DNA of 23,965 nt, from contig CALAUZ010000032.1 of assembly GCA_937892105.1 (NCBI GenBank), forward strand, positions 1 to 23,965, read 5' to 3'. This document shows positions 1,362 through 14,307 of this stretch, in pieces; within the stretch, counting starts at the first letter, position 1; each line of letters begins with the position of its first letter. The stretch comes from an uncultured Fretibacterium sp. (lineage in GTDB: Bacteria; Synergistota; Synergistia; Synergistales; Aminobacteriaceae). The translations under genes and the position numbers were made by a program. Below the pieces are notes generated by a model. That model saw nothing but the letters and a program-made list of their open reading frames with translations. It searched no databases and was not told the origin of the DNA.

Positions 1362-1384
1362 GGATTTTATCCTCCTTTGTGATT

Positions 1385-2215: not shown

Positions 2216-2271
2216 GGTCGAAACCGGCGCAACTTTGCCGGTCTTGGGGTGAAGCCCTGACTGACGAGACC
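2216..2271 (+). ncRNA. Type II hammerhead ribozyme A
   Basis: Open stem II GGTC (2216-2219) pairs with GACC (2268-2271). GAAA 2220-2223 is the core. Stem III is CCGGC 2224-2228 with GCCGG 2237-2241. Cleavage is predicted after C2243 in GUC. Stem I, TTGGGG 2244-2249 with CCCTGA 2255-2260, has a 5-nt loop. The second core strand CTGACGA is 2261-2267. Every core position fits the hammerhead consensus CUGANGA/GAAA/UH. It lies 58 nt (from cleavage site) upstream of the BRO start at 2301. Confidence 0.93.
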
Positions 2272-2300
2272 AATCGTTCAGAAGATAAAGGAGGATATGT

Positions 2301-3050
2301 ATGAGAAATAGTATTCAGCCCTTTGATTACAAAGGTGATGTTATTCGCGCTGTCATGATAGACGAAGAGGCATGGTTAGTGGCAAAGGACGTTTGCGATG
2401 TACTAGGACACACAAACTCACGAATGGCAGTGCAGGAGCTTGATGAGGATGAAAAGGGCGTAAGTAATATTTACACCCCTGGCGGAATGCAGTCTATGAC
2501 CGTGATTAACGAGGCGGGGTTGTATAAGCTGACGTTCAAGAGTAGGAAGCCCGCCGCAAAAGAGTTCACACGCTGGGTAACTCATAAGGTATTGCCTACT
2601 CTGCGCAAGACTGGGAGCTATAGCGTCAAACGCCAACTGTCGGAAGATTTGAAGGCTATTCAAGTTGTCTTAGAGCCTGCAGGAATTAGTGGTAATCAGC
2701 TATCTTTAGCACTGGACAGAGCCTATAAATTCTACACGGGGCACAGCGCGCTTAGTACAGCAGGTGTAGAGCTAGAAGCCCCAACGAAGAACCAAATCTT
2801 AACCCCAACCGAGATAGGTGCACAGTTCGGTTTATCAGCCCGACGCGTCAATGAAATCCTAGCAGGGGCGGGATTTCAGCATAGGATAGCCGATAAGTGG
2901 GAGCCGTTAAGGGATGGTGTGAATTACGCAATAATGCAGGACACTGGCAAGGCACACTCTGACGGAACACCGATTAGGCAGCTCAAGTGGAACAGTTCAA
3001 TACTCGGTGTCTTCAAGGGTATGCTTGCGCAAGAAGAAGATATGCAGTAA
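2301..3050 (+). CDS. BRO/antirepressor-like protein, N3-C1 type
   Basis: A 249-residue protein with a classic BRO-N domain: residues about 5-110 run from IQPFDYKGDVIRAVMI through WLVAKDVCDVLGH, the NEAGLYKLTF motif and VLPTLRKTGSY. The C-terminal module (about 125-245), called C1 here, has LTPTEIGAQFGLSARRVNEI, a helix-turn-helix-like segment, and ends with QDTGKAHSDGTPIRQLKW. BRO-N domains bind DNA, and phage members act as antirepressors or regulators. The N-terminal domain differs from those of the other BRO genes here, so it is labelled N3. AAAGGAGG 8 nt upstream fixes ATG 2301. It follows hammerhead A directly and leads into a second C1 BRO gene 12 nt downstream. Confidence 0.88.
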   Translation: MRNSIQPFDYKGDVIRAVMIDEEAWLVAKDVCDVLGHTNSRMAVQELDEDEKGVSNIYTPGGMQSMTVINEAGLYKLTFKSRKPAAKEFTRWVTHKVLPTLRKTGSYSVKRQLSEDLKAIQVVLEPAGISGNQLSLALDRAYKFYTGHSALSTAGVELEAPTKNQILTPTEIGAQFGLSARRVNEILAGAGFQHRIADKWEPLRDGVNYAIMQDTGKAHSDGTPIRQLKWNSSILGVFKGMLAQEEDMQ

Positions 3051-3062
3051 AGGAGAGTAAAG

Positions 3063-3854
3063 ATGACTAGTATTCAGCTTTATAGCAATGAAGATTTCTC
3101 AGTGCGAACAACGCGGGACGAGAACGATACAGTATGGTTTGTAGCGAAGGATATAGCCCAAGCCCTAGAGTATGAATTAGACGGGGGGACGGGGAAATAT
3201 TTTTCTCATGTACCGGAGCAATGGAAACAGGGAAAACGGATTTCCGTCAGGTCTGAGAATGGAGTAGTACAAGAGCGCGAGATGCTATGCCTTACAGAAC
3301 AGGGTGTGTACTTCTTTTTGGGGCGTTCAGACAAGCCCAAAGCCTTACCGTACCAGATGTGGATAGCCGGTGATGTAGTACCAAGTATCCGAGAGACTGG
3401 CAGTTATTCCCTTAATGAATACCACCCATCAATATCCAAAACTGAACTTGAGGGTATAGCTTACTTCTACGAATACGCGGGGCTAAGAGGAAATCAAGCA
3501 ACCCTTGCGCTAGATAAGTACATAAAATCCTGTATAGGTCGTAGTGCCCTAGAGACCGCAGGTATACAGCTCAATGCTCCAACCCAAAACCAAATTCTGA
3601 CCCCTACTGAAATTGGCAGGATATTCGGAATGTCAGCAATACGGGTGAATGAGATATTGGCTGGAGCAGGTTTGCAGCATAAGGTTTCAGGCAGGTGGGA
3701 GGCGATAGAGGATGGTTTGACTTACGCTGTTATGCAGGACACGGGTAAAGCCCATTCGGACGGTACACCAATTAGGCAACTGAAGTGGGATAGCTCAATA
3801 CTCGGTATGTTTGAGAACCTGCTTGTACAAGATGATTGCGGATTGGGTTTTTGA
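3063..3854 (+). CDS. BRO/antirepressor-like protein, N1-C1 type
   Basis: A 263-residue protein. The N1 domain (residues 1-120) begins MTSIQLYSNEDFSVRTTRDE, has VWFVAKDIAQALEYE, CLTEQGVYFFLGRSDKPKAL and MWIAGDVVPSIRETGSYS. The C1 module (about 128-255) has GNQATLALDKYIK, LTPTEIGRIFGMSAIRVNEI and QDTGKAHSDGTPIRQLKW, closely matching the previous gene's C-terminus. Probable DNA-binding regulator or antirepressor. GGAGAG precedes the start. The downstream 23-aa peptide and hammerhead B seem to close this transcript unit. Paralogy to the other BRO genes is evident; the target is unknown. Confidence 0.87.
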   Translation: MTSIQLYSNEDFSVRTTRDENDTVWFVAKDIAQALEYELDGGTGKYFSHVPEQWKQGKRISVRSENGVVQEREMLCLTEQGVYFFLGRSDKPKALPYQMWIAGDVVPSIRETGSYSLNEYHPSISKTELEGIAYFYEYAGLRGNQATLALDKYIKSCIGRSALETAGIQLNAPTQNQILTPTEIGRIFGMSAIRVNEILAGAGLQHKVSGRWEAIEDGLTYAVMQDTGKAHSDGTPIRQLKWDSSILGMFENLLVQDDCGLGF

Positions 3855-3870
3855 AAGGTGGTGAATTGGA

Positions 3871-3942
3871 ATGGACTGGATGCTAACAGCAAAGATATTC
3901 GCGCTGGTTGTACTGACTGTCTACTATTTCTCACTCAACTAA
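3871..3942 (+). CDS. 23-aa hydrophobic peptide, copy 1
   Basis: ATG 3871 follows GAAAGGTGGTGA. The product begins MDWMLTAKIFALVVLTVYYF and is a single hydrophobic helix. A second copy at 4966 has the same length, start MDW(M/I)LT(A/V)KIFALV and VYYF ending, with many synonymous differences, which argues that it is translated. The stop lies 7 nt before hammerhead B. A one-helix membrane peptide is likely; a toxin-like or regulatory role is possible but unproven. Confidence 0.72.
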   Translation: MDWMLTAKIFALVVLTVYYFSLN

Positions 3943-3949
3943 TGGACAA

Positions 3950-4014
3950 GGCCGAAACCGCTGACTTCTCTTACAACAAAGCGGTCTGGACGTAATGCGT
4001 TCACTGACGAGGCC
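3950..4014 (+). ncRNA. Type II hammerhead ribozyme B
   Basis: Stem II is GGCC 3950-3953 with GGCC 4011-4014, a compensatory change relative to copy A. GAAA is 3954-3957. Stem III is CCGC 3958-3961 with GCGG 3981-3984. GUC ends at 3986, the predicted cleavage point. Stem I, TGGACG 3987-3992 with CGTTCA 3998-4003, has loop TAATG. Core CTGACGA is 4004-4010. All pairs are Watson-Crick or G-U. Confidence 0.94.
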
Positions 4015-4016
4015 AT

Positions 4017-4078
4017 TCGTCAGCTGGTGTTTTACTAAGTTTAACTCTCTCAACTGTTCCCGATATAGCAGTGGAGCT
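4017..4078 (+). promoter_or_regulatory. Leader after hammerhead B with anti-core sequence
   Basis: TCGTCAG 4017-4023 is the exact complement of the ribozyme core CTGACGA (4004-4010), giving a 7-bp alternative hairpin with a 6-nt loop. Further on, ACTG 4053-4056 can pair with CAGT 4069-4072. The following TGGAGCTACTTTTCTC resembles the leader segments after hammerheads D and E, suggesting common ancestry. Confidence 0.55.
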
Positions 4079-4103
4079 ACTTTTCTCTTATAGGAGGTTA
4101 CTC

Positions 4104-4238
4104 ATGTTTCAACAATTATTAGCGCAAATAAGGCAGTCTCAACGGAGACAAAAAATGTCCTTCAAGCTACGTAATTTGCTCCTGAAGGATACGGTTGAGG
4201 GGTTGGCTAAGTCCGCCAAAAAGGTGGTATTGGAATGA
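4104..4238 (+). CDS. Small basic protein, 44 aa
   Basis: ATG 4104 lies 7 nt after AGGAGG. The product, MFQQLLAQIRQSQRRQKMS and onwards, is basic and probably helical, ending AKSAKKVVLE. The stop overlaps the next start (ATGA), which supports real translation. No family is recognised. It is the first gene after hammerhead B. Confidence 0.6.
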   Translation: MFQQLLAQIRQSQRRQKMSFKLRNLLLKDTVEGLAKSAKKVVLE

Positions 4239-4471
4239 CTTTAGCTGCAGAACTTTTAGCTGGTGTGTTCAGTTCGGATTTTTGGGACGGAGTAGGTACT
4301 GAGAAATTCTGCATGGGGTGTACCGCATTTGGAGCGAATAACCCTGAACGAGATTGCGATGCAGAAGGAGATTTTCTTAGTAGTGCATGCCACAGATGCT
4401 CGCGGGCAGAAGATATAGAAGCAATCATCAAGGAATGCGCTACTCAACTGTGCAAACTCATTGATGCATAA
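4235..4471 (+). CDS. Cys-containing small protein, 78 aa
   Basis: It starts at ATG 4235, overlapping the previous stop. Two CxxC pairs (CMGC around residue 26, CHRC around residue 52) with additional Cys at 41, 69 and 73 suggest a metal-binding fold. An acidic N-terminal half is followed by a helical C-terminus (EDIEAIIKECATQLCKLID). Not recognised as a known family. It is followed at 19 nt by the 151-aa gene, which has its own AAAGGAG site. Confidence 0.6.
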   Translation: MTLAAELLAGVFSSDFWDGVGTEKFCMGCTAFGANNPERDCDAEGDFLSSACHRCSRAEDIEAIIKECATQLCKLIDA

Positions 4472-4489
4472 AGAAAGGAGACCAATACA

Positions 4490-4945
4490 ATGCTAACCCC
4501 AGAGGAACGTTTTACTATTTGGGAAGATTTTCACGACAGAGCGCATAAGCTGTTCATTGATGTTGAAGACGCTATATACAGCGAGTTTGCGCCTTACAAG
4601 CATGACAAAAACGGAGAGCTAGTGAAGCCTGACAAGGATACTCCAGAAGCAAAGAAGCTATTTGACATGCTAGCCGACTTGGATGCTTTTCTGCAAAAGC
4701 GTGAAGAGAGCGCAGGGATTGAATACTCTGCTTGGCTTGATGAGCAGAGAAACTTGCAGAATGCGTATGAAGCGTGGTCGTTAGGACTTTGCCCGCAAGT
4801 GATGCGCACAGTGCCAAAGTATCTATGGTTCATGCCTAGTTCATGGTACAAGATAGCCCAGCTCAAGCAATTTAAGGGCATCAGCAGGGAAGACACTATG
4901 CAGGCAATAGCGTCGTGGGAAGCACAACGAACTCTAGCGTCGTAA
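4490..4945 (+). CDS. Hypothetical helical protein, 151 aa
   Basis: Start ATG 4490 after AAGAAAGGAG. The protein is acidic and mostly helical: EERFTIWEDFHDRAHKLF at the N-terminus, an EAKKLFDMLADLDAFLQKRE segment in the middle, and a C-terminal QAIASWEAQRTLAS. It is paralogous to the interrupted gene at 7612-7902: both share the E-R-(F/Y)-x-x-W beginning, the KKL(F/Y)(D/E) segment and the W-x-AQ-x(n)-LAS end. No catalytic motif is seen. A 23-aa peptide gene follows at 20 nt. Confidence 0.65.
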   Translation: MLTPEERFTIWEDFHDRAHKLFIDVEDAIYSEFAPYKHDKNGELVKPDKDTPEAKKLFDMLADLDAFLQKREESAGIEYSAWLDEQRNLQNAYEAWSLGLCPQVMRTVPKYLWFMPSSWYKIAQLKQFKGISREDTMQAIASWEAQRTLAS

Positions 4946-4965
4946 ATGAAAGGTGGTGAAAGTCA

Positions 4966-5037
4966 ATGGACTGGATACTGACAGTAAAGATATTCGCGCT
5001 CGTAGGATTAACCGTTTATTACTTTAAGTTAGGTTAA
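4966..5037 (+). CDS. 23-aa hydrophobic peptide, copy 2
   Basis: ATG 4966 follows GAAAGGTGGTGA, the same ribosome site as copy 1 at 3871. It encodes MDWILTVKIFALVGLTVYYF plus three residues, one membrane-spanning helix. The stop is 8 nt before hammerhead C, the same arrangement as copy 1 with hammerhead B. The pairing of peptide and ribozyme is conserved although the DNA has diverged. Confidence 0.72.
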   Translation: MDWILTVKIFALVGLTVYYFKLG

Positions 5038-5045
5038 AGCTCAAA

Positions 5046-5110
5046 GGTCGAAACCGCTTCTTCTCTTACAACAAAGCGGTCTACGGGTTGCGCCCGTACT
5101 GATGATGACC
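5046..5110 (+). ncRNA. Type II hammerhead ribozyme C, extra U in core
   Basis: Stem II is GGTC 5046-5049 with GACC 5107-5110. GAAA is 5050-5053. Stem III is CCGC 5054-5057 with GCGG 5076-5079. GUC ends at 5081. Stem I, TACGGG 5082-5087 with CCCGTA 5093-5098, has loop TTGCG. Core CTGATGA 5099-5105 is followed by one unpaired T (5106) before stem II. An extra residue at this junction is known in at least one natural viroid hammerhead (CChMVd), so activity is plausible. Confidence 0.92.
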
Positions 5111-5114
5111 CGTA

Positions 5115-5181
5115 TCATCAGAGCTTCGTAAGTCATATTTAATAGATTTTCCCTGCACAGAAACACAGCCTAGCAGGGGAA
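5115..5181 (+). promoter_or_regulatory. Leader after hammerhead C: anti-core and 9-bp hairpin
   Basis: TCATCAG 5115-5121 is the exact complement of core CTGATGA (5099-5105); the T/A change relative to copies B and D keeps the pairing. Further down, 5148-5156 pairs with 5173-5181 (TTTCCCTGC with GCAGGGGAA) to form a 9-bp stem with a 16-nt loop just before the AAAGGAGG site of the next gene. Confidence 0.55.
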
Positions 5182-5204
5182 TGTTTATCCAAAAGGAGGC
5201 ACGC

Positions 5205-5513
5205 ATGGATACCAATTTACAGTTAATTGCATCAAGAGAGTTCAACGGATACGTGCTCGACTGCTACGTAGACCCAGACCAGCGGGACAAAGGCGACTTC
5301 TGTGCAACTACGGAACAGATTGGTAGGTTACTCGACTATGAATACACAGCAGAGGCCATAAGGAAAATTTATCAGCGCAACAAGGAACGACTAGACCTTT
5401 TTTCAACTAGAGTCAATTTGCCTCGTGTTGATGGAATGCGCACAATTATTCATGAGGTAATCATGTACAACTTTAACCTTTTACTTTTAGTGTATTGGGC
5501 AAGCATATTCTAG
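5205..5513 (+). CDS. Truncated BRO-N (N2 type) antirepressor-like protein
   Basis: ATG 5205 is chosen because AAAAGGAGG ends 4 nt upstream; ATG 5181 lies within the leader hairpin. Residues 1-90 match the N2 BRO domain (SREFNGYVLDCYVDP, CATTEQIGRLLDYEY, NKERLDLFSTRVNL, MYNF). After YNF the usual KGLLEICRYSNQ continuation is replaced by a short hydrophobic tail LLLLVYWASIF and a TAG stop. No C-terminal module is present. It is either a stand-alone DNA-binding domain or a decayed BRO gene. Hammerhead D begins 12 nt after the stop. Confidence 0.7.
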   Translation: MDTNLQLIASREFNGYVLDCYVDPDQRDKGDFCATTEQIGRLLDYEYTAEAIRKIYQRNKERLDLFSTRVNLPRVDGMRTIIHEVIMYNFNLLLLVYWASIF

Positions 5514-5525
5514 CAGGGTAACACA

Positions 5526-5582
5526 GGTCGAAACGTAAGGATAATTCCTGCGTCCAAGCGTAATGAGCTTGCTGACGAGACC
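5526..5582 (+). ncRNA. Type II hammerhead ribozyme D
   Basis: Stem II is GGTC 5526-5529 with GACC 5579-5582. GAAA is 5530-5533. Stem III opens CG 5534-5535 with CG 5551-5552 and continues through a G-U pair, an A-U pair, a bulge and GGA/TCC. GUC ends at 5554. Stem I, CAAGC 5555-5559 with GCTTG 5567-5571, carries an inner TAATG as in copy B. Core CTGACGA is 5572-5578. Confidence 0.9.
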
Positions 5583-5587
5583 CCTAA

Positions 5588-5646
5588 TCGTCAGATTATT
5601 TTTCCCCAATCCATTCAAATCTCCCCTGTATATCTCAGCAGGGGAG
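5588..5646 (+). promoter_or_regulatory. Leader after hammerhead D: anti-core hairpin and 8-bp stem
   Basis: TCGTCAG 5588-5594 is the exact complement of core CTGACGA (5572-5578) and is followed directly by ATTATTTTT, so this alternative hairpin would resemble a weak intrinsic terminator. CTCCCCTG 5621-5628 pairs perfectly with CAGGGGAG 5639-5646 (10-nt loop) just upstream of the ligase ribosome site. Confidence 0.5.
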
Positions 5647-5668
5647 CTTCTATCTCAAAGGAGGGATA

Positions 5669-6517
5669 TTGTTGTTTGAGCAAGGTGAAATACATAGCAA
5701 TGTTCAACTTGCTAACACTTACAGTCCGGCCAAGAAATATAAGGTAGCGTCATGGTACGCAACGCCTAAGTTTGACGGCGTAAGAGCAGTGTTCGTCCCC
5801 CAGCAAGGATTTTTCACCAGGAACGATAAAGCTATCAATGGCTTTGATTACATGGCCGAAGCACTAGAGCGCGAGTGTACAAGTCGCGGGCTGTCATTCG
5901 TTGATGGTGAACTCATAGTAGCTGGAAAAGGATTTCAAGACAGTCAAAGTGCTGTTATGTCAGCAGAACATCCGGCTAAGTCCAATGTAGAATTTCATGT
6001 ATTTGCGGCTGGCGGTGATTTTTCTGATACAGCAGACATGCTCAAGGCTATACCAGACTGTCAGAAGGCACATATCTTCAAAGTACACTCAATGCTAATC
6101 CTTAATACTCCAAAGGCAGTAGATGATGCTTGTCGCTCTTTTTGTGCACAGGGGTATGAAGGTGTAGTGCTTCGTCATCCAGACATTCCTTATCACGCAG
6201 GCAGAAGCAATCACTTGCTGAAGTACAAGCTATTCAAGGAAACAGACTTGCGCATAGTTGGCATGATTGACGGTGAAGGAAGGCTAGTTGGCACGCTAGG
6301 CAGTCTAGTGGTTGAAGGTGAAATTAATGGGCTGAAGGTAAGGTCATGCGTTGGTACAGGACTAACAGATGCGGACAGAGAGAAGCTGTATCAGGACACA
6401 AATATTGTCGGTAAGCTGTTGACAGTGAAGTATCAGGTATTGACGGAGAAGCCGGACAAAGAAGGCATCTACAGTCTAAGGTTTCCTAGCTTCATAGGCA
6501 TAAAGCAAGACAGATAA
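5669..6517 (+). CDS. ATP-dependent DNA ligase
   Basis: A 282-residue minimal ligase, the size of phage enzymes with only nucleotidyltransferase and OB domains. Motif I is KFDGVR with the adenylated Lys at residue 34; motif III is VDGELIV, motif IV EGVVLR and motif V LLKYK. The C-terminal 90 residues fit an OB fold. It seals nicks using ATP, likely in phage DNA replication or repair. The start is TTG: AAAGGAGG (5657-5664) favours TTG 5669 or the adjacent TTG 5672; no ATG is available. It is the first gene after hammerhead D, with a leader hairpin just before the ribosome site. Confidence 0.92.
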   Translation: MLFEQGEIHSNVQLANTYSPAKKYKVASWYATPKFDGVRAVFVPQQGFFTRNDKAINGFDYMAEALERECTSRGLSFVDGELIVAGKGFQDSQSAVMSAEHPAKSNVEFHVFAAGGDFSDTADMLKAIPDCQKAHIFKVHSMLILNTPKAVDDACRSFCAQGYEGVVLRHPDIPYHAGRSNHLLKYKLFKETDLRIVGMIDGEGRLVGTLGSLVVEGEINGLKVRSCVGTGLTDADREKLYQDTNIVGKLLTVKYQVLTEKPDKEGIYSLRFPSFIGIKQDR

Positions 6518-6529
6518 GGAGAAGGACAG

Positions 6530-6670
6530 ATGAATAGTATTCAGCATTTCGTTTTGAAGCCCGTCAGGTCAACGATAGACAAGGGCGGCGTGAATGAGAA
6601 GAAATATGTCCCAGAGCAAAAGGGGTAGGTATCCCTGCTTGGCGCATATTTGTCCGCAAACCGTATCTAA
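6530..6670 (+). pseudogene. BRO-N remnant, small ORF with internal TAG
   Basis: ATG 6530 follows AGGAGAAGG and encodes MNSIQHFVLKPVRSTIDKGG, which resembles the start of the next BRO gene (MSSIQLFSNQQFSVRSTIDENG); the DNA around RSTID is nearly identical. After about 23 residues the similarity ends. The frame stops at TAG 6626-6628, or continues 13 codons to TAA 6668. Probably a fragment left by recombination between BRO copies. Confidence 0.5.
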
Positions 6671-6698
6671 TCAAGTATCAATAGCAAGGAGGCACAAT

Positions 6699-7490
6699 AT
6701 GAGTAGTATTCAGCTTTTCAGTAACCAGCAATTTTCCGTCCGGTCAACGATAGATGAGAACGGAATGATTTGGTTTGTAGCAAGAGACGTGGCGGAGGCT
6801 TTGGAATACGAGGAAAGTTCAATATCAAGCATAAATAAACTTTGTGCAAATGTGCCCGACGAATGGAAGGGTCGGAAACGGTTTCTGACCCCAGGCGGTG
6901 AACAGGAAATGCTCTGTCTTACCGAGCAGGGTGTGTATTTCTTCTTAGGGAGAAGCGATAAGCCGAAAGCACTTCCGTATCAGATGTGGATAGCCGGAGA
7001 CGTAGTGCCTAGCATACGCAAGACGGGAAGCTACAGCGTCAATAAGCCTGCGGAAGATAAAGAGCTAAAGCACAAGGAACTAGATGGTAGGCGGTTAGAG
7101 ATAGATTTAGAGCGAGCGAAGTTTTTGCAACACATAATCGAAGTACCGCCGTTCCCGCTAACCGATGAAAGCAAGGCTGTAATTGAGCACGAAGCGTTCA
7201 AGCTGGTAACCGGCCATGAGTATTTAGGCATGTTGTCGCAGATAACGGAAAAGTGGTACACAGCAGAAGATATAGGCAAGGTGTTTGGCATCAGCGCAAA
7301 CATGGTAGGACGCATAGCGAAGAGCAATCACCTAAAGCCTGAACAAGGGCAGAGCAACAAGTATGGCCGCTGGATATACTCCAAGTCGAAGTATTGCAGC
7401 CGTGAAGTTCCTAGCTTCATTTATTCCGAAGATGCCCTTGACTGGTTCAGAGAATATCATGATGGCGTATGCAGCGAGGTGCAGCAGTAA
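6699..7490 (+). CDS. BRO/antirepressor-like protein, N1-C2 type
   Basis: ATG 6699 follows AAGGAGG. The 263-residue product has the N1 BRO domain (SSIQLFSNQQFSVRSTIDE, IWFVARDVAEALEYEE, CLTEQGVYFFLGRSDKPK, GDVVPSIRKTGSYS) to about residue 118. A charged linker follows, then module C2 with HEAFKLVTGHEYLGML, EKWYTAEDIGKVFGISANMVGRI (helix-turn-helix-like), GRWIYSKSKY and FIYSEDALDWFREY. C2 differs from the C1 tail of other BRO genes here. Likely DNA-binding regulator or antirepressor. Its TAA stop overlaps the next start (TAATG). Confidence 0.87.
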   Translation: MSSIQLFSNQQFSVRSTIDENGMIWFVARDVAEALEYEESSISSINKLCANVPDEWKGRKRFLTPGGEQEMLCLTEQGVYFFLGRSDKPKALPYQMWIAGDVVPSIRKTGSYSVNKPAEDKELKHKELDGRRLEIDLERAKFLQHIIEVPPFPLTDESKAVIEHEAFKLVTGHEYLGMLSQITEKWYTAEDIGKVFGISANMVGRIAKSNHLKPEQGQSNKYGRWIYSKSKYCSREVPSFIYSEDALDWFREYHDGVCSEVQQ

Positions 7491-7606
7491 TGAACAAGTA
7501 TTTTCGCTCAATGCTAATAATATTCGCCCAGAGAAAGTACCGCGTAAGCAGCAAAAGGTTCACTCAGCAGAAAGTAGAGCTGCGTAACGTGGGTGAAAGG
7601 AGGTGA
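7490..7606 (+). CDS. Small basic protein, 38 aa
   Basis: ATG 7490 overlaps the BRO stop (TAATG), so coupling is likely. The product starts MNKYFRSMLIIFAQRKYRVS and is strongly basic. Its first 16 residues resemble the 42-aa protein at 8087 (MDKYLRSKFILYSRRK). Its final codons contain the AAAGGAGG ribosome site of the next gene. No known family. Confidence 0.5.
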   Translation: MNKYFRSMLIIFAQRKYRVSSKRFTQQKVELRNVGERR

Positions 7607-7611
7607 AAACG

Positions 7612-7902
7612 ATGACTGAAATGGAACGTTATGACAAGTGGTGCGAGATAGCTAGCCGAGTAGAAGAGCTAATAGGCTTTGTGGAAGGCGAAATCGGCAC
7701 GAAGAAATTTACAGAAACGAGCGACCGGCACGGTCTGTCCAAAATAGACAAGAAGCTGTACGAAGCACTAGAAGTAGCCAACAAAGCCGCATCAGCTCTT
7801 GCGGAAGAATAGCTAGACAAGAACTTTGTATTCTATTTGGACACAAAGCAGGCAGTAGAGTTATGGAAGGCGCAGAAGATGATGGAGCGTCTAGCGTCGT
7901 AG
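7612..7902 (+). pseudogene. Paralog of the 151-aa helical protein, split by TAG
   Basis: ATG 7612 follows AAAGGAGG by 8 nt. The first 66 codons (MTEMERYDKWCEIASRVEEL onwards) end at TAG 7810-7812, but the same frame continues 29 codons to TAG 7900. The two parts together align with the intact gene at 4490: E-R-(F/Y)-x-x-W at the start, KKL(Y/F)(E/D) in the middle and W-x-AQ-x(n)-LAS at the end. Hammerhead E begins 8 nt after the second TAG, the spacing seen for other ribozymes after true gene ends, so the longer frame is the ancestral gene. A nonsense mutation or amber readthrough are both possible. Confidence 0.65.
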
Positions 7903-7910
7903 AAAACAGA

Positions 7911-7971
7911 GGCCGAAACGTGGGGAGAAAATCTTCACGTCTACGGGTATTGGCCCGTACTGATGATGGCC
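7911..7971 (+). ncRNA. Type II hammerhead ribozyme E, extra U in core
   Basis: Stem II is GGCC 7911-7914 with GGCC 7968-7971. GAAA is 7915-7918. Stem III is CGTG 7919-7922 with CACG 7936-7939, possibly extended by G-U pairs. GUC ends at 7941. Stem I, TACGGG 7942-7947 with CCCGTA 7954-7959, has loop TATTGG. Core CTGATGA 7960-7966 is followed by an unpaired T (7967). Stem I and core are almost identical to copy C, but stem II differs with both strands changed together. Confidence 0.92.
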
Positions 7972-8020
7972 ATGTTGTGATGACAGGCATATCGAGGTCA
8001 TTAGAAAAACTTTTCACTAG

Positions 8021-8054
8021 CTCCCACCGTTACCCCCATATTTTAGAGTGGGAG
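8021..8054 (+). promoter_or_regulatory. 7-bp leader hairpin after hammerhead E
   Basis: CTCCCAC 8021-8027 pairs with GTGGGAG 8048-8054 around a 20-nt loop. The sequence after it (GAGCGTCTATTTC) resembles the leader after hammerhead D (GAGCTTCTATCTC). There is no U-run, so it is not a usual terminator; a stabilising leader structure is more likely. Confidence 0.45.
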
Positions 8055-8086
8055 CGTCTATTTCACCAAGAAAAGGGGAGGTGGTC

Positions 8087-8889: not shown

Positions 8890-8910
8890 AAGGGAAAGTT
8901 GGTGAATATA

Positions 8911-9348
8911 GTGTCCATTAACTACGCATACTATCTAAAATCGGATGCTTGGCAAGCGAAGCGACTTCAAGCCTTGAAGCGAGACGGTTTCCAGTGTCAA
9001 ATGTGCGGCTCAGGAACTAACCTGAATGTGCATCACATATCCTACGAACACTTAGACACGTATGACGAGATAGATGACCTGATAACTCTCTGTCGAGATT
9101 GCCACAAGAAAGTGCATGAACGAGACTTGCAGAGAAAAGCAGAACAAATCCCCGAAGGTCAAAACAATAACAGCCTGTTCCAACTAGCACTAAAACTATT
9201 GAGAACGCCAAACAAAGACAGAGCAAGTGCATGGTCTCAGTTTGAGAAGGCTTGCGCCCAAAGTATCCCCCCAGTATCAGCATCAGAGTGCACAAATATC
9301 TGGTTTGGTGCTGTAAGGATAGTAGATAACTGGGGTTCATTATGGTAA
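8911..9348 (+). CDS. HNH endonuclease
   Basis: The 145-residue protein has CQMCG (Zn pair), LNVHHISY (the HNH His-His), and ITLCRDCHKKVHERD (second Zn pair and final His), in the usual order over residues 25-70. The rest is helical without a recognised domain. GTG 8911 is preferred because GAAAGTTGGTGA lies just upstream and resembles the ribosome sites of neighbours; TTG 8899 in the same frame is the alternative. Free-standing HNH proteins in phages can be homing endonucleases or packaging nickases; there is no intron here, so a mobile free-standing enzyme is likely. Confidence 0.85.
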   Translation: MSINYAYYLKSDAWQAKRLQALKRDGFQCQMCGSGTNLNVHHISYEHLDTYDEIDDLITLCRDCHKKVHERDLQRKAEQIPEGQNNNSLFQLALKLLRTPNKDRASAWSQFEKACAQSIPPVSASECTNIWFGAVRIVDNWGSLW

Positions 9349-9351
9349 TAC

Positions 9352-9371
9352 ATCTGACCCCTCAGATTTTC
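9352..9371 (+). terminator. Possible intrinsic terminator after HNH gene
   Basis: ATCTGA 9352-9357 pairs with TCAGAT 9362-9367 around CCCC, and the stem is followed by TTTCT. The stem is short (6 bp), so the terminator would be weak. It sits where the rightward unit ends and a minus-strand gene follows. Confidence 0.4.
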
Positions 9372-9416
9372 TCCGCAACTTAGTAGACGCAGCAATGGTA
9401 GAGTTCACGAGACCTA

Positions 9417-9629
9417 TCACTCACTCCCCGCGTTGCGTTCTCTGAGTACACAATCTGTATCTCCAACAGAGTAAAAACTCAGTCCATTATCTTCAAGGTA
9501 CTTCTTGATACCTAGCGCGACAAAATGGACAACCTGATTAGCTGTAGGGCGGTGCTCCCTATTGGACACTTGCTCTAACTCAGCTCTCATTTGGGGGGTG
9601 AACCTTACTGTTAATGCACTAGTCTGCAT
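9417..9629 (-). CDS. Ribbon-helix-helix regulator
   Basis: A 70-residue protein on the minus strand. The N-terminus (SALTVRFTPQMRAELEQVSN) has the alternating pattern of a beta strand followed by helix A of Arc/MetJ/CopG-type proteins; helix B follows at TANQVVHFVALGIKKYLED. Such proteins bind inverted repeats as dimers and repress. The start ATG 9629 follows AGAAGGGAAG. It faces the rightward BRO gene at 9771, and the gap between contains an 11-bp inverted repeat, the probable operator. This is the only minus-strand gene in the right 22 kb. Autoregulation is inferred. Confidence 0.75.
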   Translation of the reverse strand: MQTSALTVRFTPQMRAELEQVSNREHRPTANQVVHFVALGIKKYLEDNGLSFYSVGDTDCVLRERNAGSE

Positions 9630-9675
9630 TTTTATACTTCCCTTCTAGTGTTTTTGTACATAATAGCACATTATT

Positions 9676-9749
9676 CGATGCTAAGAGTTGACATTTTCAG
9701 TTCTAATGATACTCTTAGCATTGTTTAGATGCTATTCAACTCTATTATA
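9676..9749 (+). promoter_or_regulatory. Divergent promoter region with 11-bp inverted repeat
   Basis: ATGCTAAGAGT 9678-9688 and ACTCTTAGCAT 9711-9721 are a perfect inverted repeat with a 22-bp spacer. Between and overlapping them are TTGACA 9688-9693 and, 16 bp later, TACTCT 9710-9715 preceded by TG, a possible extended -10. A second candidate is TTGTTT 9721-9726 and TATTAT 9743-9748, 16 bp apart. Leftward, TATTAT occurs in the reverse strand upstream of the RHH gene. The repeat over the -35 and -10 suits a repressor operator. Confidence 0.55.
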
Positions 9750-9770
9750 GATATATTAAGGAGGCTATAT

Positions 9771-10559
9771 ATGGACAACGATTTGCAGCTTATTACAACT
9801 AAGAGCTTCAATGGTGTGGAGCTGGATTGCTACGTAGAACCGAACCAGCAGGACAAAGGAGCGTTTTGGGCAACAAGGACACAGATTGGGCAACTTCTAG
9901 AATATGTTGAACCTGGTGTTGCTATTGGAAAAATCCATCAGCGTAATCAAGAACGTCTCGATAAATTCTCAAGGGTACACCAAATTGACCTACCCTCTGG
10001 TGGAGTTCAATACGTAACAATCTACAACTTCAAGGGCTTGTTAGAGATATGCCGGTACAGTAATCAGCCGAAAGCCAACGCAGTAATGGACTGGCTATTC
10101 GACGTTGCGGACGAAATACGGCGCACTGGCAGCTACACACGCCAGAGCGACGAAGAGCTGAAACGTAAAGACCAAGAATTGAATATCCGGAAAGCAGAGT
10201 TGCTTCAATCAATGATTGGTATGTGCCCTATGACTGATGAAACAAAAACTGTATTCATTCATGAGGCGTATAAAGCTCTTACAGGGAACTCCTTACTCTC
10301 CATGTTGCCTGAGAGTACCGAAAAATGGTACTCGGCTACCGACATAGGCCAAGTTTTAGGTATCTCAGCGAATAAAGTCGGCCGCATAGCAAAGGAATAC
10401 GGCATAAAAGCACCAGAAGGCGAAAGCAACGAGTATGGACGCTGGATATTCTCAAAGTCAAAGCATTCCAACCACGAATGCTCCACGTTTATCTATAACT
10501 CACATGCACTCCAAAGGTTCAGACAGTTATTCGGGCAATCTAATCAGCCATCATTCTAG
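9771..10559 (+). CDS. BRO/antirepressor-like protein, N2-C2 type
   Basis: ATG 9771 follows AAGGAGG by 6 nt. The 262-residue product has the N2 BRO domain: TTKSFNGVELDCYVEPNQQ, FWATRTQIGQLLEY, IHQRNQERLDKFS, IYNFKGLLEICRYSNQPKA, DEIRRTGSYT (to about residue 125). After a charged linker comes module C2: HEAYKALTGNSLLSML, EKWYSATDIGQVLGISANKV, GRWIFSKSKH and FIYNSHALQRFRQL. N-terminal partner of the domain truncated at 5205, C-terminal partner of the one at 6699. It is the first gene after the divergent promoter region. The TAG stop overlaps the next ribosome site (TAGGAGG). Confidence 0.87.
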   Translation: MDNDLQLITTKSFNGVELDCYVEPNQQDKGAFWATRTQIGQLLEYVEPGVAIGKIHQRNQERLDKFSRVHQIDLPSGGVQYVTIYNFKGLLEICRYSNQPKANAVMDWLFDVADEIRRTGSYTRQSDEELKRKDQELNIRKAELLQSMIGMCPMTDETKTVFIHEAYKALTGNSLLSMLPESTEKWYSATDIGQVLGISANKVGRIAKEYGIKAPEGESNEYGRWIFSKSKHSNHECSTFIYNSHALQRFRQLFGQSNQPSF

Positions 10560-10569
10560 GAGGATAAAC

Positions 10570-11553
10570 TTGGACAAAGTATTACGCGCATCAAAAGCAG
10601 GTTTTCCATGCCTGCGCAATCTTTTCTACTCAGTCAACAGCCCCGACATGGGCATAATCACTCCAAAGACACAGCGTATCTTCGACGTAGGCACTTACTT
10701 AGAACCGATGGTTGTTGAATGGCTGAAACAGGATGGTTGGGACGTTGAATACAATCCAGGTAGTCAGCATGCTGACCTTGAAGTAACTGTGCCGTTTGAG
10801 CATGGCATTCTTGCCGGACACCCTGACTGCATAATCTCTAAAGAGAATTTGCAGAACGTTCTAGTGGACATCAAGACAATGAATGACAGAGCGTTTACGC
10901 AGTGGAAAAAGGAAGGCTCTATTAAGTCTAAGCCGCAATATGTTGAACAGGTACATATCTATGCTATGGGGTGCATTAGAGCAGGTATAGCCATCAACAC
11001 TAACAATCTAGGTATAGTAGGTGTAAACAAGAACAATTCTGACTGGCACATAGACTTTTTTGACTTTGACTACGCCAAGATAGCTGATATTGAGAGCAAG
11101 GCTGAAGCCGTATTCGCTATGGTAGAGCCGCCAATAGAATGCTCGCCTGCTGAGGGTTGGTGTTGCAATTACTGTGAGTTTTCCCACATGTGCGACCTTA
11201 AAGGCAAAGCCAAACCTGCAACTATTCCAGTAGTTGATGATACTTTGCTGTCAAGTCTACTTGATGAGAATGATGCTGTAGTTCACGCACTAAAAGACTT
11301 AGCTTTTTCGCGAGAGTTAGCGACACAGGCCAAGACAATGGAAGCCGACGCAAAACAAGTACTACTAGCAGAAGCGAGAGCCAAAGGTAAAGATACACTC
11401 AAAGGCGGAGGATTTACCTGCACCATAACAGAGAGAACTTCAAGTCGTTTTGACAGCGCAGGGTTCAAGAAGTTACACCCCGATTTGGCGGCCAAGTTCA
11501 CGACTGAAAGCATAGCAACATATTTCACACTGAAAGAGGACATAGGCAAATGA
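10570..11553 (+). CDS. PD-(D/E)XK nuclease, RecB/Cas4-like
   Basis: Start TTG 10570, placed 6 nt after GGAGG; no ATG fits. The 327-residue protein has GTYLEPMVVEWL (conserved Glu), HGILAGHPDCII (Asp), VLVDIKTMN (the D-x-K of the PD-(D/E)XK fold) and YVEQVHIYAMG (Gln/Tyr motif), spaced as in RecB/Cas4/YqaJ-type exonucleases. A Cys cluster follows at about 195-210 (CSPAEGWCCNYCEFSHMC), matching the Fe-S-like Cys of Cas4/AddB. The C-terminal third is helical. It precedes a RecA-like ATPase, so the pair probably acts in recombination or replication. It overlaps the next gene by ATGA. Confidence 0.85.
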   Translation: MDKVLRASKAGFPCLRNLFYSVNSPDMGIITPKTQRIFDVGTYLEPMVVEWLKQDGWDVEYNPGSQHADLEVTVPFEHGILAGHPDCIISKENLQNVLVDIKTMNDRAFTQWKKEGSIKSKPQYVEQVHIYAMGCIRAGIAINTNNLGIVGVNKNNSDWHIDFFDFDYAKIADIESKAEAVFAMVEPPIECSPAEGWCCNYCEFSHMCDLKGKAKPATIPVVDDTLLSSLLDENDAVVHALKDLAFSRELATQAKTMEADAKQVLLAEARAKGKDTLKGGGFTCTITERTSSRFDSAGFKKLHPDLAAKFTTESIATYFTLKEDIGK

Positions 11554-11795
11554 AGCACCGTACACACAACCCCAATAGTAAGACACTGGACTTTCTGAGC
11601 TTAAAGATACTCAGAGAAGTGTTAGATAAACACGCAGCGTCGCTCTCAGACAAGACGAAAGACAAGTTAGTAGAGGCAATAATCAGCCTAACGACAGCCA
11701 ATGGGAACAAGCCATCGACTTATGGCTATGGGCACTACTTTGCTCAAGCCTATAGCGAGCATGGCACAAACTCAATCCTAAATACAGACGACTAA
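11550..11795 (+). CDS. Hypothetical protein, 81 aa
   Basis: ATG 11550 overlaps the nuclease stop. The sequence is helical and polar (LDFLSLKILREVLDKHAASL, TKDKLVEAIISLTTAN), with an aromatic C-terminal part (STYGYGHYFAQAYSEHG). No family recognised. Located between nuclease and ATPase genes. Confidence 0.65.
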   Translation: MKHRTHNPNSKTLDFLSLKILREVLDKHAASLSDKTKDKLVEAIISLTTANGNKPSTYGYGHYFAQAYSEHGTNSILNTDD

Positions 11796-11810
11796 AGGAG
11801 GCTAATATTT

Positions 11811-12539
11811 ATGGCATTCAGGAAGGCAGAAAGAAGACAGGCAAAGTTAAGGTTAGGGATTACCGGTCCAGCAGGAAGTGGTAAGACCTATAGCGCGTTG
11901 CTGATAGCGTTTGGATTAGGCGGCAAGATAGCCATGATAGACACGGAGAACGGCAGCGGAGACCTTTACGCGAACTTAGGGGATTACGACATATGCACAG
12001 TAACAGCCCCGTATGACGTAAGGAAGTATCTAGCCTTGATAGCAGAGGCAGAGAAAGCAGGGTATGACACCATAGTGATTGACAGCTTGTCTCATGCATG
12101 GAGTGGAGAAGGCGGGCTTTTGTACATGCAAGGGAAAATAGCTGCGGCATCACGGAGCAGTAATTCCTATATGGCGTGGAGACAAGTAACCCCCCTGCAC
12201 AACCGGCTGATAGACGCAATGTTAAGCTCTCCCTGCCACATAATAGCAACGATGCGCTCCAAGACGGAATATGTGCAGGTAGACAATGACAGAGGCGGCA
12301 AGGAGATACGCAAAGTAGGACTAGCCCCTGTATAGCGAGAAGGCATGGACTACGAATTCGGAACGGTGTTTGACCTTACAGCCAACCATAACGCAACAGT
12401 AAGTAAGGACAGGACGGGAATATTCGACGGCTCAATCTTCACGATAACGCCAGAAACAGGAAAGGTACTGCGTAACTGGCTCAACAGCGGAGCACCCGAA
12501 GCTGACAATCCAGAGAGCCAAGTTGCAGTAAATCAATAA
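11811..12539 (+). pseudogene. RecA-like phage AAA ATPase, interrupted by TAG
   Basis: ATG 11811 after AAAGGAGG. Walker A is GPAGSGKT (residues 19-26) and Walker B TIVIDSLSH (about 91-99); ITGPAGSGKTYSALLIA, MIDTENGSGDLYA and CHIIATMRSKTEY are typical of a family of about 240-aa phage ATPases. Codon 175 is TAG (12333-12335) inside KVGLAPV-TAG-REGMDYEF. In this family that position is glutamine (LAPVQREGMDYEF), as I know the family. The frame then continues 68 codons to TAA 12539 with TVFDL, SKDRTGIFDG and WLNSG, all family-typical. A single CAG-to-TAG change would explain it. A truncated protein of 174 aa, readthrough, or loss of function are possible. Both ATP-binding motifs lie before the TAG. 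Confidence 0.85.
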
Positions 12540-12550
12540 GGCATCCAGTT

Positions 12551-12583
12551 TGACTGCTGTGTTTCCCATGAACACGGCAGTCA
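12551..12583 (+). other. Long stable hairpin between genes
   Basis: Bases 12551-12563 pair with 12571-12583 to give 13 bp with one G-U pair and a 7-nt loop (TCCCATG). It lies 12 nt after the ATPase stop. It has no U-run, so a processing or 3' stabilising element is more likely than an intrinsic terminator. Confidence 0.5.
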
Positions 12584-12627
12584 GAGACCCCTTAATAGGA
12601 AGGAGAACGTAGACAAGAGTGAGAAAT

Positions 12628-12912
12628 ATGAGTAAGTGGACATATCAAGTCAGGCAGATAAACAACAGCGTCTCCCTGCTTGTTGATAATCGGAAGATAG
12701 GGACACTTTACGGCTCAGGAAGGGCATCTGTAGACCAGGCAAGACTAATAACCCACGCGCCGGAAATGTTAAGCATGTTGGTGGAGTGCTCGGAAGTGTT
12801 TGAGGACTTGGCCGAACTCCAAAGTGAAGAGTATTCGGAACTCGTAGGCAATCTTCTAGAGAGAATAGAAGAAATGCTAGTGCGTATAGGGAACGAGGAG
12901 GTAAAAGCATGA
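12628..12912 (+). CDS. Phage protein of the ARLIxxAPEM family
   Basis: Chosen start ATG 12628 (MSKWTYQVRQ) by comparison with paralogs that begin MSEFTxG; GTG 12619 is an alternative. The 94-residue product has QARLITHAPEMLSMLVECSE, the motif shared with genes at 18106, 18564, 19319 and 20535. The N-terminal half is predicted as beta strands and the C-terminal half as a helix ending ERIEEMLVRI. Function unknown. It overlaps the next BRO gene by ATGA. Confidence 0.68.
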   Translation: MSKWTYQVRQINNSVSLLVDNRKIGTLYGSGRASVDQARLITHAPEMLSMLVECSEVFEDLAELQSEEYSELVGNLLERIEEMLVRIGNEEVKA

Positions 12913-13223
12913 ACAGTATTCAGCTTTATAGCAACGAGGATTTCAGCGTTCGGACAGTAAAGGACGCAGATGGGACAGTGTGGTTTGTGGCGAAAGATAT
13001 TATGAATGCTCTTGAGTATTCAGAGACGAGTACCCCAGCTCAGGTTATGCAATCCGTACCTAGCATTTGGTCTGGTATCAAACGGATTGATAGCACATCA
13101 GATAAACCCACTGCTAGACCGTATCAAGACGTTTTATGCCTTACGGAACAGGGTGTGTACTTCTTTTTGGGGCGTTCAGATAAACCCAAAGCACTGCCCT
13201 ACCAAATGTGGATAGCAGCATAG
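12909..13223 (+). CDS. BRO-N (N1) domain protein without C-terminal module
   Basis: A 104-residue protein starting MNSIQLYSNEDFSVRTVKDA and containing VWFVAKDIMNALEYSE, CLTEQGVYFFLGRSDKPKAL and LPYQMWIAA, then TAG. Other N1 proteins continue GDVVPSIR(K/E)TGSYS plus a C-terminal module. The TAG overlaps the AGGAGG site of the next gene, and the next BRO frame is the same frame: readthrough would give a 375-residue double BRO protein. Either a stand-alone DNA-binding domain or a recombination product. Confidence 0.75.
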   Translation: MNSIQLYSNEDFSVRTVKDADGTVWFVAKDIMNALEYSETSTPAQVMQSVPSIWSGIKRIDSTSDKPTARPYQDVLCLTEQGVYFFLGRSDKPKALPYQMWIAA

Positions 13224-13235
13224 GAGGAGAAAGTA

Positions 13236-14036
13236 ATGAACGACATGGTATTAGTGAAATCCGCTAGCTTTAACGGTATTGCGCTTGACTGTTACGTCAA
13301 GCCTACACAAGAAGACAAGGGCGATTTCTGGGCGACGCGCGAGCAGATAGGGGCATTACTGGAGTATGAGTATCCCAATGACTCAATCAGGAAGATACAT
13401 GAACGGCACGCAGAACGCCTAGATATGTTTTCAACATCGGTCAAATTGACCCAAGTTGAAGGAAGCCGTGAAGTAATACGAGAAATAATAGTTTACAACT
13501 TCAAGGGACTGCTTGAGGTGTGTCGCTACAGCAATCAACCGAAGGCCGACGCGGTAATGGATTGGCTGTGGAGTGTTGCAGATGAAATACGCCGAACTGG
13601 AAGTTACTCTATTAAAAACGAGCCATTCATTCCCAAAAATGCAATCAGTGAAGCAGCTCTTATATTTGGGCAAGCCGGAATAGAAGGCAATCAACTAACG
13701 CTAGCCCTAGATAAATTGTATAAGTTCTACACAGGGACAAGTGCACTAAGGGCAGCAGGTGTAGAGCTAGAAGCCCCCGATAATTGCCAGCTCCTAACAC
13801 CAACAGAGATTGGCAAGCTGTTCGGTCTATCTGCCCGTAAAGTGAATGACTTGCTCGCTGGAGCAGGACTACAGCACAAGATAGCTGATAAATGGGAAGC
13901 CATAGGGGACGGCAAAAAGTACTCGGTAATGCAAGACACTGGCAAGGCACATTCCGACGGAACGCCAATCCGCCAGCTCAAGTGGACTACAGACATTATC
14001 CCAGTTGTAGAGACCCTGTTGGAGGATTGCGCTTGA
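13236..14036 (+). CDS. BRO/antirepressor-like protein, N2-C1 type
   Basis: ATG 13236 follows AGGAGG. The 266-residue protein has N2 (ASFNGIALDCYVKPTQ, FWATREQIGALLEYEY, KIHERHAERLDMFS, YNFKGLLEVCRYSNQPKA, DEIRRTGSYS) then the C1 module (GNQLTLALDKLYKFYTG, LTPTEIGKLFGLSARKVNDL, QDTGKAHSDGTPIRQLKW). C1 closely matches the BRO proteins at 2301 and 3063, while N2 matches 9771 and 5205, showing module exchange. Likely DNA-binding regulator. Its stop overlaps the next start (TGATG). Confidence 0.87.
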   Translation: MNDMVLVKSASFNGIALDCYVKPTQEDKGDFWATREQIGALLEYEYPNDSIRKIHERHAERLDMFSTSVKLTQVEGSREVIREIIVYNFKGLLEVCRYSNQPKADAVMDWLWSVADEIRRTGSYSIKNEPFIPKNAISEAALIFGQAGIEGNQLTLALDKLYKFYTGTSALRAAGVELEAPDNCQLLTPTEIGKLFGLSARKVNDLLAGAGLQHKIADKWEAIGDGKKYSVMQDTGKAHSDGTPIRQLKWTTDIIPVVETLLEDCA

Positions 14037-14215
14037 TGTTCAAACTAGCATTAGGGATACTGTTTATCCTGAACACAGCGGGCTTGACGCTAACTTCAGT
14101 TGCTTGGTGTACGGACTTGGAATACAGACCAAACAAATCGCTGCTAATAAGCTCCATAGCCCTCTGGTTGGTAAATATAATCGTCGATGCTCTGCTGTTC
14201 ATAGCTGTTCACTAA
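14036..14215 (+). CDS. Small two-helix membrane protein, 59 aa
   Basis: ATG 14036 overlaps the BRO stop. Two hydrophobic helices: residues 1-24 (FKLALGILFILNTAGLTLTS) and about 38-58 (LISSIALWLVNIIVDALLFI), separated by a short polar loop. Size and layout fit small phage membrane proteins including holin-like ones, but there is no lysis gene next to it. The stop is 23 nt before hammerhead F. Confidence 0.65.
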   Translation: MFKLALGILFILNTAGLTLTSVAWCTDLEYRPNKSLLISSIALWLVNIIVDALLFIAVH

Positions 14216-14238
14216 CTCCCCAAGACAAACTAACCTAA

Positions 14239-14307
14239 GACCGAAACAGGCTACCGCATTACCTTTTTAGCCTGTCTGGGGCTGATATTGCCCTACTGAC
14301 GATGGTC
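14239..14307 (+). ncRNA. Type II hammerhead ribozyme F, extra U in core
   Basis: Stem II is GACC 14239-14242 with GGTC 14304-14307, the reverse base pairs relative to copies A, C and D; A14238 with T14308 can add a pair. GAAA is 14243-14246. Stem III is CAGGCTA 14247-14253 with TAGCCTG 14268-14274 (7 bp). GUC ends at 14276. Stem I, TGGGGC 14277-14282 with GCCCTA 14290-14295, has one G-U pair. Core CTGACGA 14296-14302 is followed by an unpaired T (14303). The most diverged copy, with all stems kept. Confidence 0.93.

Follow-up and report, generated by a model that had tools for sequence, protein, structure and literature searches.

A 23,965-nucleotide stretch of contig CALAUZ010000032.1 from an uncultured Fretibacterium sp. 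(assembly GCA_937892105.1), analysed over its whole length and referred to here as the window, encodes BRO/antirepressor proteins, an ATP-dependent DNA ligase, an HNH endonuclease, a Cas4-like/RecE-like exonuclease, an AAA_24 protein, a thymidylate synthase-like protein, a dCMP deaminase and a VapE-like domain protein. Between these genes lie six RNA motifs that our analysis confirms as type II hammerhead ribozymes by structure. As judged from the predicted proteins, the gene content is that of a phage early region, which bears out a preliminary description of the sequence that had placed the hammerheads in a phage region and interleaved among BRO/antirepressor genes. The host is likely a member of the Synergistota, since a reindeer Synergistales genome (G001) encodes a counterpart with 92% identity to the VapE-like protein and another contig of that genome (C26, locus L473) aligns to window positions 1-2273 at 74%. 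A peptide-pattern search for close relatives with three window proteins (two in viral contigs, one in genome contigs) gave none that could be confirmed.

A descriptor of the permuted form (a 4-base stem II, GAAA, stem III, UH, stem I, CUGANGA, an optional single base and stem II) matched the whole window exactly six times, always on the plus strand and never on the minus strand; 200 dinucleotide-shuffled versions, searched on both strands, yielded no match. The six matches have the coordinates, order and cut positions (Table 1) that the preliminary description had given for six complete permuted hammerheads with stem II open. The core elements CUGANGA, GAAA, the A15.1-U16.1 pair and H17 are present in permuted order, with stem II open, at all six sites, and apart from one insertion the core letters are intact throughout. 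This insertion, missed in the preliminary description, is a single extra U between CUGANGA and stem II at sites 3, 5 and 6, where it intervenes between A9 and the pair 10.1-11.1 that lies directly beside A9 at sites 1, 2 and 4. Stem I is 17 nt long at sites 1 to 4, 18 nt at site 5 and 19 nt at site 6; the loop I motif GUNANG is found at sites 1, 2 and 4, and the base preceding stem II is A at every site.

For comparison, two pattern scans of viral contigs returned at least 120 stretches each, giving 239 loci, of which 215 held 293 descriptor motifs; two scans with anti-core patterns (see below) gave 58 further loci and added no motifs, and two later scans of viral contigs again returned at least 120 stretches each. 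Loci are contig stretches, so that one contig may yield several, and all counts for viral contigs given here hold among the matches listed. From 262 candidate motifs, 60 diverse viral-contig motifs were chosen and aligned, leaving out the window, into a class model, R1. Searched against the window, R1 matched exactly the six sites, with E values between 2.3e-17 and 2e-10, and no further position at E ≤ 10; these scores partly restate the core, because the training motifs were gathered with patterns that fix it. Features that the scan patterns left free are a better test, and both of them, the A before stem II and the identity of the inserted base (U in three of three), agree.

The preliminary description had proposed an Rfam covariance search and had named a lack of hits above threshold as refuting it; taken literally, that outcome was obtained with Rfam, the type II hammerhead family RF02276 matching no site at its gathering score. 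No Rfam family reached its gathering score in the window, and a permissive whole-window scan found no hammerhead. Run on short stretches covering sites 1 to 5, RF02276 (gathering score 37) gave 24.7 bits at site 3, 22.1 at site 5 and 21.0 at site 1, but no match at site 2 or site 4. Of the 44 descriptor motifs in ten viral loci that were picked for holding several, the gathering score recovered 3 and missed the other 41. We therefore rejected Rfam as the arbiter and do not count the absent match as a refutation: it is a weakness of the RF02276 model, whose gathering score is a curation cut-off and not a structural feature.

Alignment of the window and Synergistota motifs to R1 gave 33 sequences (32 distinct) with standard pairs in 95.6% of cells. 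Fourteen of the 15 pairs vary on both sides, which supports the compensatory pairing that the preliminary description had read from the stems of the six sites. The covariation score, obtained on an alignment fitted to the R1 structure and so favouring it, was 0.834 compared with 0.209 after shuffling (0 of 500 shuffles as high), and fell to 0.06 to 0.17 when partner columns were slid by 1 to 3 positions. In stem II, two of the four pairs fail to form in eight and nine alignment rows; we put this down to a change of register that the inserted U causes in the fitted alignment. That the six sites are chance matches to a short motif, a view in whose favour only the missing Rfam match at gathering score can be cited, is excluded for practical purposes by the shuffles and the covariation.

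Table 1. Features of the window. Cut positions and hairpins are predicted; anti-core segments are complementary to the catalytic heptamer.
Feature	Position	Strand	Remarks
Conserved, apparently non-coding leader	1992..2213	+	directly before hammerhead 1
Hammerhead 1	2216..2271	+	GGTC-GAAA-stem III-UC/stem I-CUGACGA-GACC; cut after 2243; heads BRO gene at 2301
Imperfect anti-core segment	2274..2281	+	after hammerhead 1; one bulged base
BRO/antirepressor gene	2301..3050	+	behind hammerhead 1
23-codon open reading frame	3871..3942	+	hydrophobic by eye; stop 7 nt before hammerhead 2
Hammerhead 2	3950..4014	+	cut after 3986; heads genes 4104-4945; found by descriptor and R1
Anti-core segment	4017..4023	+	7-bp hairpin with CTGACGA 4004-4010 (site 2)
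23-codon open reading frame	4966..5037	+	hydrophobic by eye; in 79% repeat of 3852-3929 region; stop 8 nt before hammerhead 3
Hammerhead 3	5046..5110	+	U inserted after core; cut after 5081; heads truncated BRO gene at 5205
Anti-core segment	5115..5121	+	7-bp hairpin with CTGATGA 5099-5105 (site 3); paired change relative to sites 2 and 4
Leader hairpin	5147..5181	+	between hammerhead 3 and ribosome binding site
Hammerhead 4	5526..5582	+	cut after 5554; heads ATP-dependent DNA ligase gene at 5669; found by descriptor and R1
Anti-core segment	5588..5594	+	7-bp hairpin with CTGACGA 5572-5578 (site 4)
Leader hairpin (9 bp)	5621..5646	+	after hammerhead 4, before ligase ribosome binding site
ATP-dependent DNA ligase gene	5669..6517	+	behind hammerhead 4
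Hammerhead 5	7911..7971	+	U inserted after core; cut after 7941
Leader hairpin	8020..8055	+	after hammerhead 5, before ribosome binding site
Hammerhead 6	14239..14307	+	U inserted after core; cut after 14276; lowest R1 score of the six (38.3 bits)

The inserted U recurs well beyond the window. The scan patterns allowed any base at this position, and 70 of 419 unique viral motifs carry an insertion there, which is U in 69; among 21 Synergistota motifs, four have an insertion at the position, all of them U. The published filter of Perreault 2011 (PMC3088659) rejected core changes and required the first stem II pair to adjoin the core. The insertions named in the parts of the paper that cover core variants are 6a, 13a and 2a/2b, with none after A9; 6a and 2a/2b impaired activity, and 13a was expected to be tolerated. 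The recurrence of the U insertion suggests that a strict 2011 core filter would drop about one in six motifs of the set examined here. Other features recur as well: an A precedes stem II in 98% of 272 unique viral motifs and in 412 of 419 in the larger set, stem I is 17 nt long in 246 of the 272, with GUNANGC as the commonest loop, and the full loop I motif GUNANG is present in 257 of 419. A pseudoknot between loop I and the tail showed no class-wide excess, with at least four Watson-Crick pairs in 19 of 246 motifs compared with 17.0 after tail swaps.

The preliminary description had considered six hammerheads within about 12 kb unusual, a view that the wider set does not uphold. At least two motifs are present in 83 of the 338 viral loci with a motif, the densest array seen here being that of viral contig locus L131, where about 4.2 kb hold nine type II hammerheads. 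Prophage genes flanked by clusters of hammerheads have already been reported (PMC3088659), and a ribozyme array of this size is ordinary. Paired hammerhead patterns about 350 to 370 bases apart were also seen in Gastranaerophilales and other genome contigs (L316, L317, L325, L353, L363, L375 and L376). In none of 99 multi-motif loci of all kinds are the strands mixed. Placement relative to genes was examined with a simple caller of open reading frames (ORFs) for 279 motifs with 700 bases of room, out of 365 motifs in 265 loci: the previous same-strand stop lies a median of 4.5 nt before the motif (206 of the 279) and the next same-strand start a median of 47 nt after it (201 cases).

Among 185 Synergistota genomes, 18 have R1 matches at E ≤ 1e-4 with stricter filters applied. 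One contig, probably a prophage (G055:C29, locus L459), has six R1 positions, of which three are canonical, two have a U4C core and one is without a paired stem II; the U4C cores (CCGAUGA) belong to minus-strand motifs that start at 4297 and 5706. Of the genes that site 2 heads in the window, two (4104 and 4490) are also headed by a motif in L459, behind other upstream neighbours. In L473, the counterpart of hammerhead 1 has stem II changed to GGAC/GTCC with pairing kept, and the homology between this contig and the window ends at 2273, two bases past hammerhead 1.

Directly 3' of sites 2, 3 and 4 lies an exact reverse complement of the catalytic heptamer, here termed the anti-core segment, in which the variable core base (C, T and C, respectively) is also matched; no such segment follows sites 5 and 6. 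Complete pairing (7/7) at three of the six sites compares with 0.43 sites expected from shuffled tails (maximum of 2 in 200 rounds), and at a threshold of at least six pairs there is no excess (3 sites vs. 2.5 expected). In the predicted 3' product, the core-tail pairing probability drops from 0.98-0.996 for the first four sites to 0.55 for site 5 and 0.27 for site 6. For the first four, shuffled tails average 0.48 to 0.80, and reach the observed value in 0, 2, 2 and 0 of 50 cases. Elsewhere the signal is faint. A first exact test on viral motifs gave 7/7 pairs in 1 of 275 and at least six pairs in 17 of 275 (8.8 expected). With G-U pairs allowed, the segment was found in 8 of 272 viral motifs (2.5 expected), 0 of 39 motifs from other genomes (0.5 expected) and 3 of 21 Synergistota motifs (0.2 expected), and a second viral set gave 2 of 141 (0.74 expected), which is not significant. 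Core-tail pairing probability in the 272 viral motifs averaged 0.497 compared with 0.429 for shuffles, and two anti-core patterns (stem II GRCC, spacing 3 to 9) returned one ribozyme among 60 matches in viral contigs. We therefore rejected the segment as a class-wide feature; being rare elsewhere, it is at most a trait of this phage group.

From the observed motifs, their covariation, their common strand and their intergenic placement here and in relatives, we infer that each of the six ribozymes probably cuts a long early transcript in cis, just before the gene or gene block that follows. The early transcript would span several gene blocks, and each ribozyme would fold as it emerges and cut in cis during transcription. 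Such a cut would leave the upstream block ending in stem III and the downstream block starting with a 5'-hydroxyl and the stem I hairpin; at sites 3 to 5, another hairpin is predicted between these and the ribosome binding site. The following genes would receive an mRNA with a fixed 5' end independent of the upstream sequence, and this insulation may help phages to exchange gene blocks. At sites 1 to 4 only, the catalytic strand may pair anew with the tail that follows within a few bases, once cutting has occurred or when it is delayed. This would disarm the ribozyme and prevent re-joining, and the new 5' end would carry two hairpins that abut each other.

Our own reading of the anti-core segment is that it may lock the ribozyme after the cut, and if it works in this way it would be a simple natural means to irreversible self-cutting. 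In Mahen 2010, a study of an engineered ribozyme in vitro and in yeast, the parts on downstream competitors describe a reduction of cleavage of about two-fold, to about half, in vitro, a faster exchange between pairings in cells, and downstream alternative pairings that can compete with the ribozyme there. Given these results, the segment could act either as a lock or as a brake. The predicted leader hairpins at sites 3 to 5 are local features, since 50-nt tails after ribozymes, of which 150 were tested, are not more structured than shuffles (mean z of +0.20); at site 1, the predictions give no strong hairpin in the leader. The sequence GCAGGGGAG, which is linked to the predicted leader hairpins, likewise precedes ribosome binding sites in L459.

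A number of observations count against cutting of the early transcript at these sites. In nearest-neighbour predictions the anti-core fold beats the constrained hammerhead by 1.5, 4.3, 6.1 and 4.2 kcal/mol at sites 1 to 4, and at site 5 another fold beats it by 2.8 kcal/mol; because competing folds win energetically, sites 1 to 5 might cut poorly without tertiary contacts or early cleavage. The core rule of PMC3088659 rejects any core change and requires the pair next to the core, so that sites 3, 5 and 6 could be slow. With the crude ORF caller, 124 of 279 motifs overlap some ORF of at least 60 codons (229 of 279 for random places), and the next gene is on the same strand in only 201 of 272 cases. 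Finally, the counterpart of site 6 in L459 has lost its stem II pairing.

The energies, with the hairpin favoured by 1.5 to 6.1 kcal/mol, would also suit controlled switches, in which the anti-core segment competes with the ribozyme and the speed of transcription, or translation, determines what fraction is cut and thereby how much message is kept upstream and downstream. The perfect 7-base segments at sites 2, 3 and 4 (three sites, with 0.43 expected), the bulged one at site 1, the paired C-to-T/G-to-A change at site 3 and the competition seen in cells in the relevant parts of Mahen 2010 all fit such a switch. We consider it unlikely, however, given that the segment is absent at sites 5 and 6, shows no excess at six or more pairs, is only weakly enriched in the first viral set and not significantly in the second, and retrieves a single ribozyme when used as a search pattern, and that tails taken together show no more structure than shuffled ones.

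Alternatively, the motifs might be relics in decay: formerly active, most of them would by now cut too slowly to have an effect and would be kept because the intervals are non-coding. Site 6 has the lowest R1 score and a counterpart without stem II, two L459 motifs have the U4C core, site 4 has mismatched R1 model pairs, and the stretch from site 3 to site 4 holds a truncated BRO gene. This account fares worse still than the switches: the core is intact at six of six sites apart from the U insertion, the covariation across 32 sequences shows selection on the fold, and site 1 and its L473 counterpart keep stem II through a paired change.

If the ribozymes insulate gene blocks, they might lie where phage genomes are joined. 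We asked whether homology to another ribozyme-bearing contig (below 97% identity, with at least 150 bases of flank) crosses the motif or stops there, counting collinear pieces as continuing, dropping contig-end cases, averaging per cluster and allowing a slack of 75 bases on both sides of the comparison; p values are from one-sided rank tests. For viral contigs, the fraction of ribozyme sites with a break is 0.926 (95% interval 0.84-0.99; 119 sites, 24 clusters), compared with 0.748 for control junctions between other genes (95% interval 0.66-0.84; 547 junctions, 45 clusters; p = 0.02) and 0.694 for controls with gaps of at least 60 (213 junctions, 32 clusters; p = 0.003). At an identity of at least 75%, the values are 0.919 vs. 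0.645 (p = 0.002) and 0.588 for the wider gaps (p = 4e-4), and at 80% or above, 0.926 (79 sites, 19 clusters) vs. 0.590 (p = 1.4e-4) and 0.542 (p = 8e-5). An earlier round on fewer data had given 0.869 vs. 0.656, with overlapping intervals.

Here, too, there is contrary evidence. The conserved ribozyme sequence can itself stretch an alignment up to the joint and so blur the base at which homology breaks, and when no slack is allowed for the ribozymes, the three identity levels give 0.80, 0.68 and 0.70, with intervals that overlap those of the slack-75 controls; at 75% identity the excess almost vanishes (0.677 vs. 0.645). Bacterial-genome loci alone, taken in the earlier round, show no difference (0.907 vs. 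0.885, from 3 and 4 clusters). The more frequent breaking of homology at ribozymes than at other gene junctions is therefore a trend that the data support but do not prove. Nor do the per-cluster values clearly favour one neighbour. Raw pairs favoured movement with the downstream gene (259 vs. 127), and raw identity was 92.4 for the ribozyme vs. 81.3 for the flank in 71 downstream pairs and 82.1 vs. 85.3 in 24 upstream pairs; per cluster, the downstream share is 0.54 and the identities are 87.7 vs. 86.3 (downstream) and 85.5 vs. 84.4 (upstream). The proposal that the ribozyme travels with its downstream gene was withdrawn, as the raw-pair signal is gone per cluster.

More frequent breaks at ribozymes are also what one would see if the motifs served mainly as short patches of DNA homology for phage recombination, with cutting incidental. 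This is very improbable: the stems vary freely with their pairs kept, which a patch of DNA homology would not need, and multi-motif loci keep to one strand (0 of 99 mixed). On the side of cutting in cis, a broader proposal is that these are natural RiboJ-like ribozyme-headed cassettes forming the joints of phage mosaicism, self-locking in the Synergistota lineage and in many cases built on an overlooked core with a U after A9. We put this forward tentatively and regard the full combination as rather doubtful. Were it true, a hammerhead would free each early-gene block from its neighbours, and blocks would function wherever recombination places them. The window and its relatives make it possible to test whether ribozymes act as portable insulators where exchangeable blocks of phage genes are joined. 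Among the open-licence PMC papers listed, no title or abstract opening dealt with an anti-core tail, with a U inserted after A9 or with hammerheads placed at mosaic joints, and given this limited scope we do not claim novelty for any of the three.

Much of the arrangement is familiar from the type II hammerheads of RF02276, which, in the parts of PMC3088659 that describe them, share the permuted order, the open stem II, the core, the intergenic location and the occurrence of several copies flanking prophage genes; the cutting of long phage messages has already been proposed for them there. Three tandem arrangements in that work cleave in vitro, one of them also in E. coli. The window sites differ from the class in scoring below the gathering score and in carrying the U after CUGANGA at three of six sites. 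A pseudoknot between loop I and the tail is described as typical; in our set it is not in excess, and the recurring features are the A before stem II and GUNANG. The HHphage motif of haloviruses HF1 and HF2 (PMC3088659) is similar in that a hammerhead variant lies 13 nt before an early-gene start and the transcript 5' end falls within three bases of the hammerhead cut, and differs in its archaeal host and in an insertion at another core position. The predicted order of ribozyme, hairpin and ribosome binding site at sites 3, 4 and 5 resembles that of RiboJ (PMC6206723); RiboJ is engineered from sTRSV, and insulation by the natural sites is proposed here. The HDV-like theta ribozymes of gut phages (PMC10879173) are likewise small self-cutting RNAs in phage genomes, but have another fold and are often tied to tRNAs, of which none was found in the window.

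The leader preceding hammerhead 1 has at least partial matches in five of the 185 Synergistota genomes (G001, G049, G050, G055 and G059), and a sixth (G002) matches the ribozyme part only and not the leader. The first L459 motif follows the same conserved leader as site 1. A helix in the leader, GTAACC/GGTTAC in the window, reads GCAACC/GGTTGC in L459 and GCAGCC/GGCTGC in L473. The leader has a fold z-score of -1.87 and no convincing Rfam match, and is possibly a new structured RNA.

The BRO genes of the window include two truncated copies, at 5205-5513 (between hammerheads 3 and 4) and at 12909-13223. Searched by tblastn at 1e-4, the window BRO proteins matched 0 of 215 viral ribozyme loci and 1 of 82 control loci; Synergistota loci do match. 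A general link between ribozymes and BRO genes was rejected on the 0 of 215, and the BRO association is a property of this phage group.

Tiny ORFs end just before ribozymes in the window (3871-3942, 4966-5037 and 14033-14215) and on the minus strand of L459 (5630, 7966, 9128 and 17347); five of these seven have 23 codons, and they are hydrophobic by eye. In-frame TAG codons occur at 12333, in the AAA_24 gene, which is uninterrupted in L459, and at 20754, in a small gene near 20.7 kb. UAG recoding (code 15) is unlikely, because the longest genes of the window run uninterrupted. One of three candidate TAG sites, 7810, probably marks a genuine stop, as TAG also ends the L459 relative at this place.

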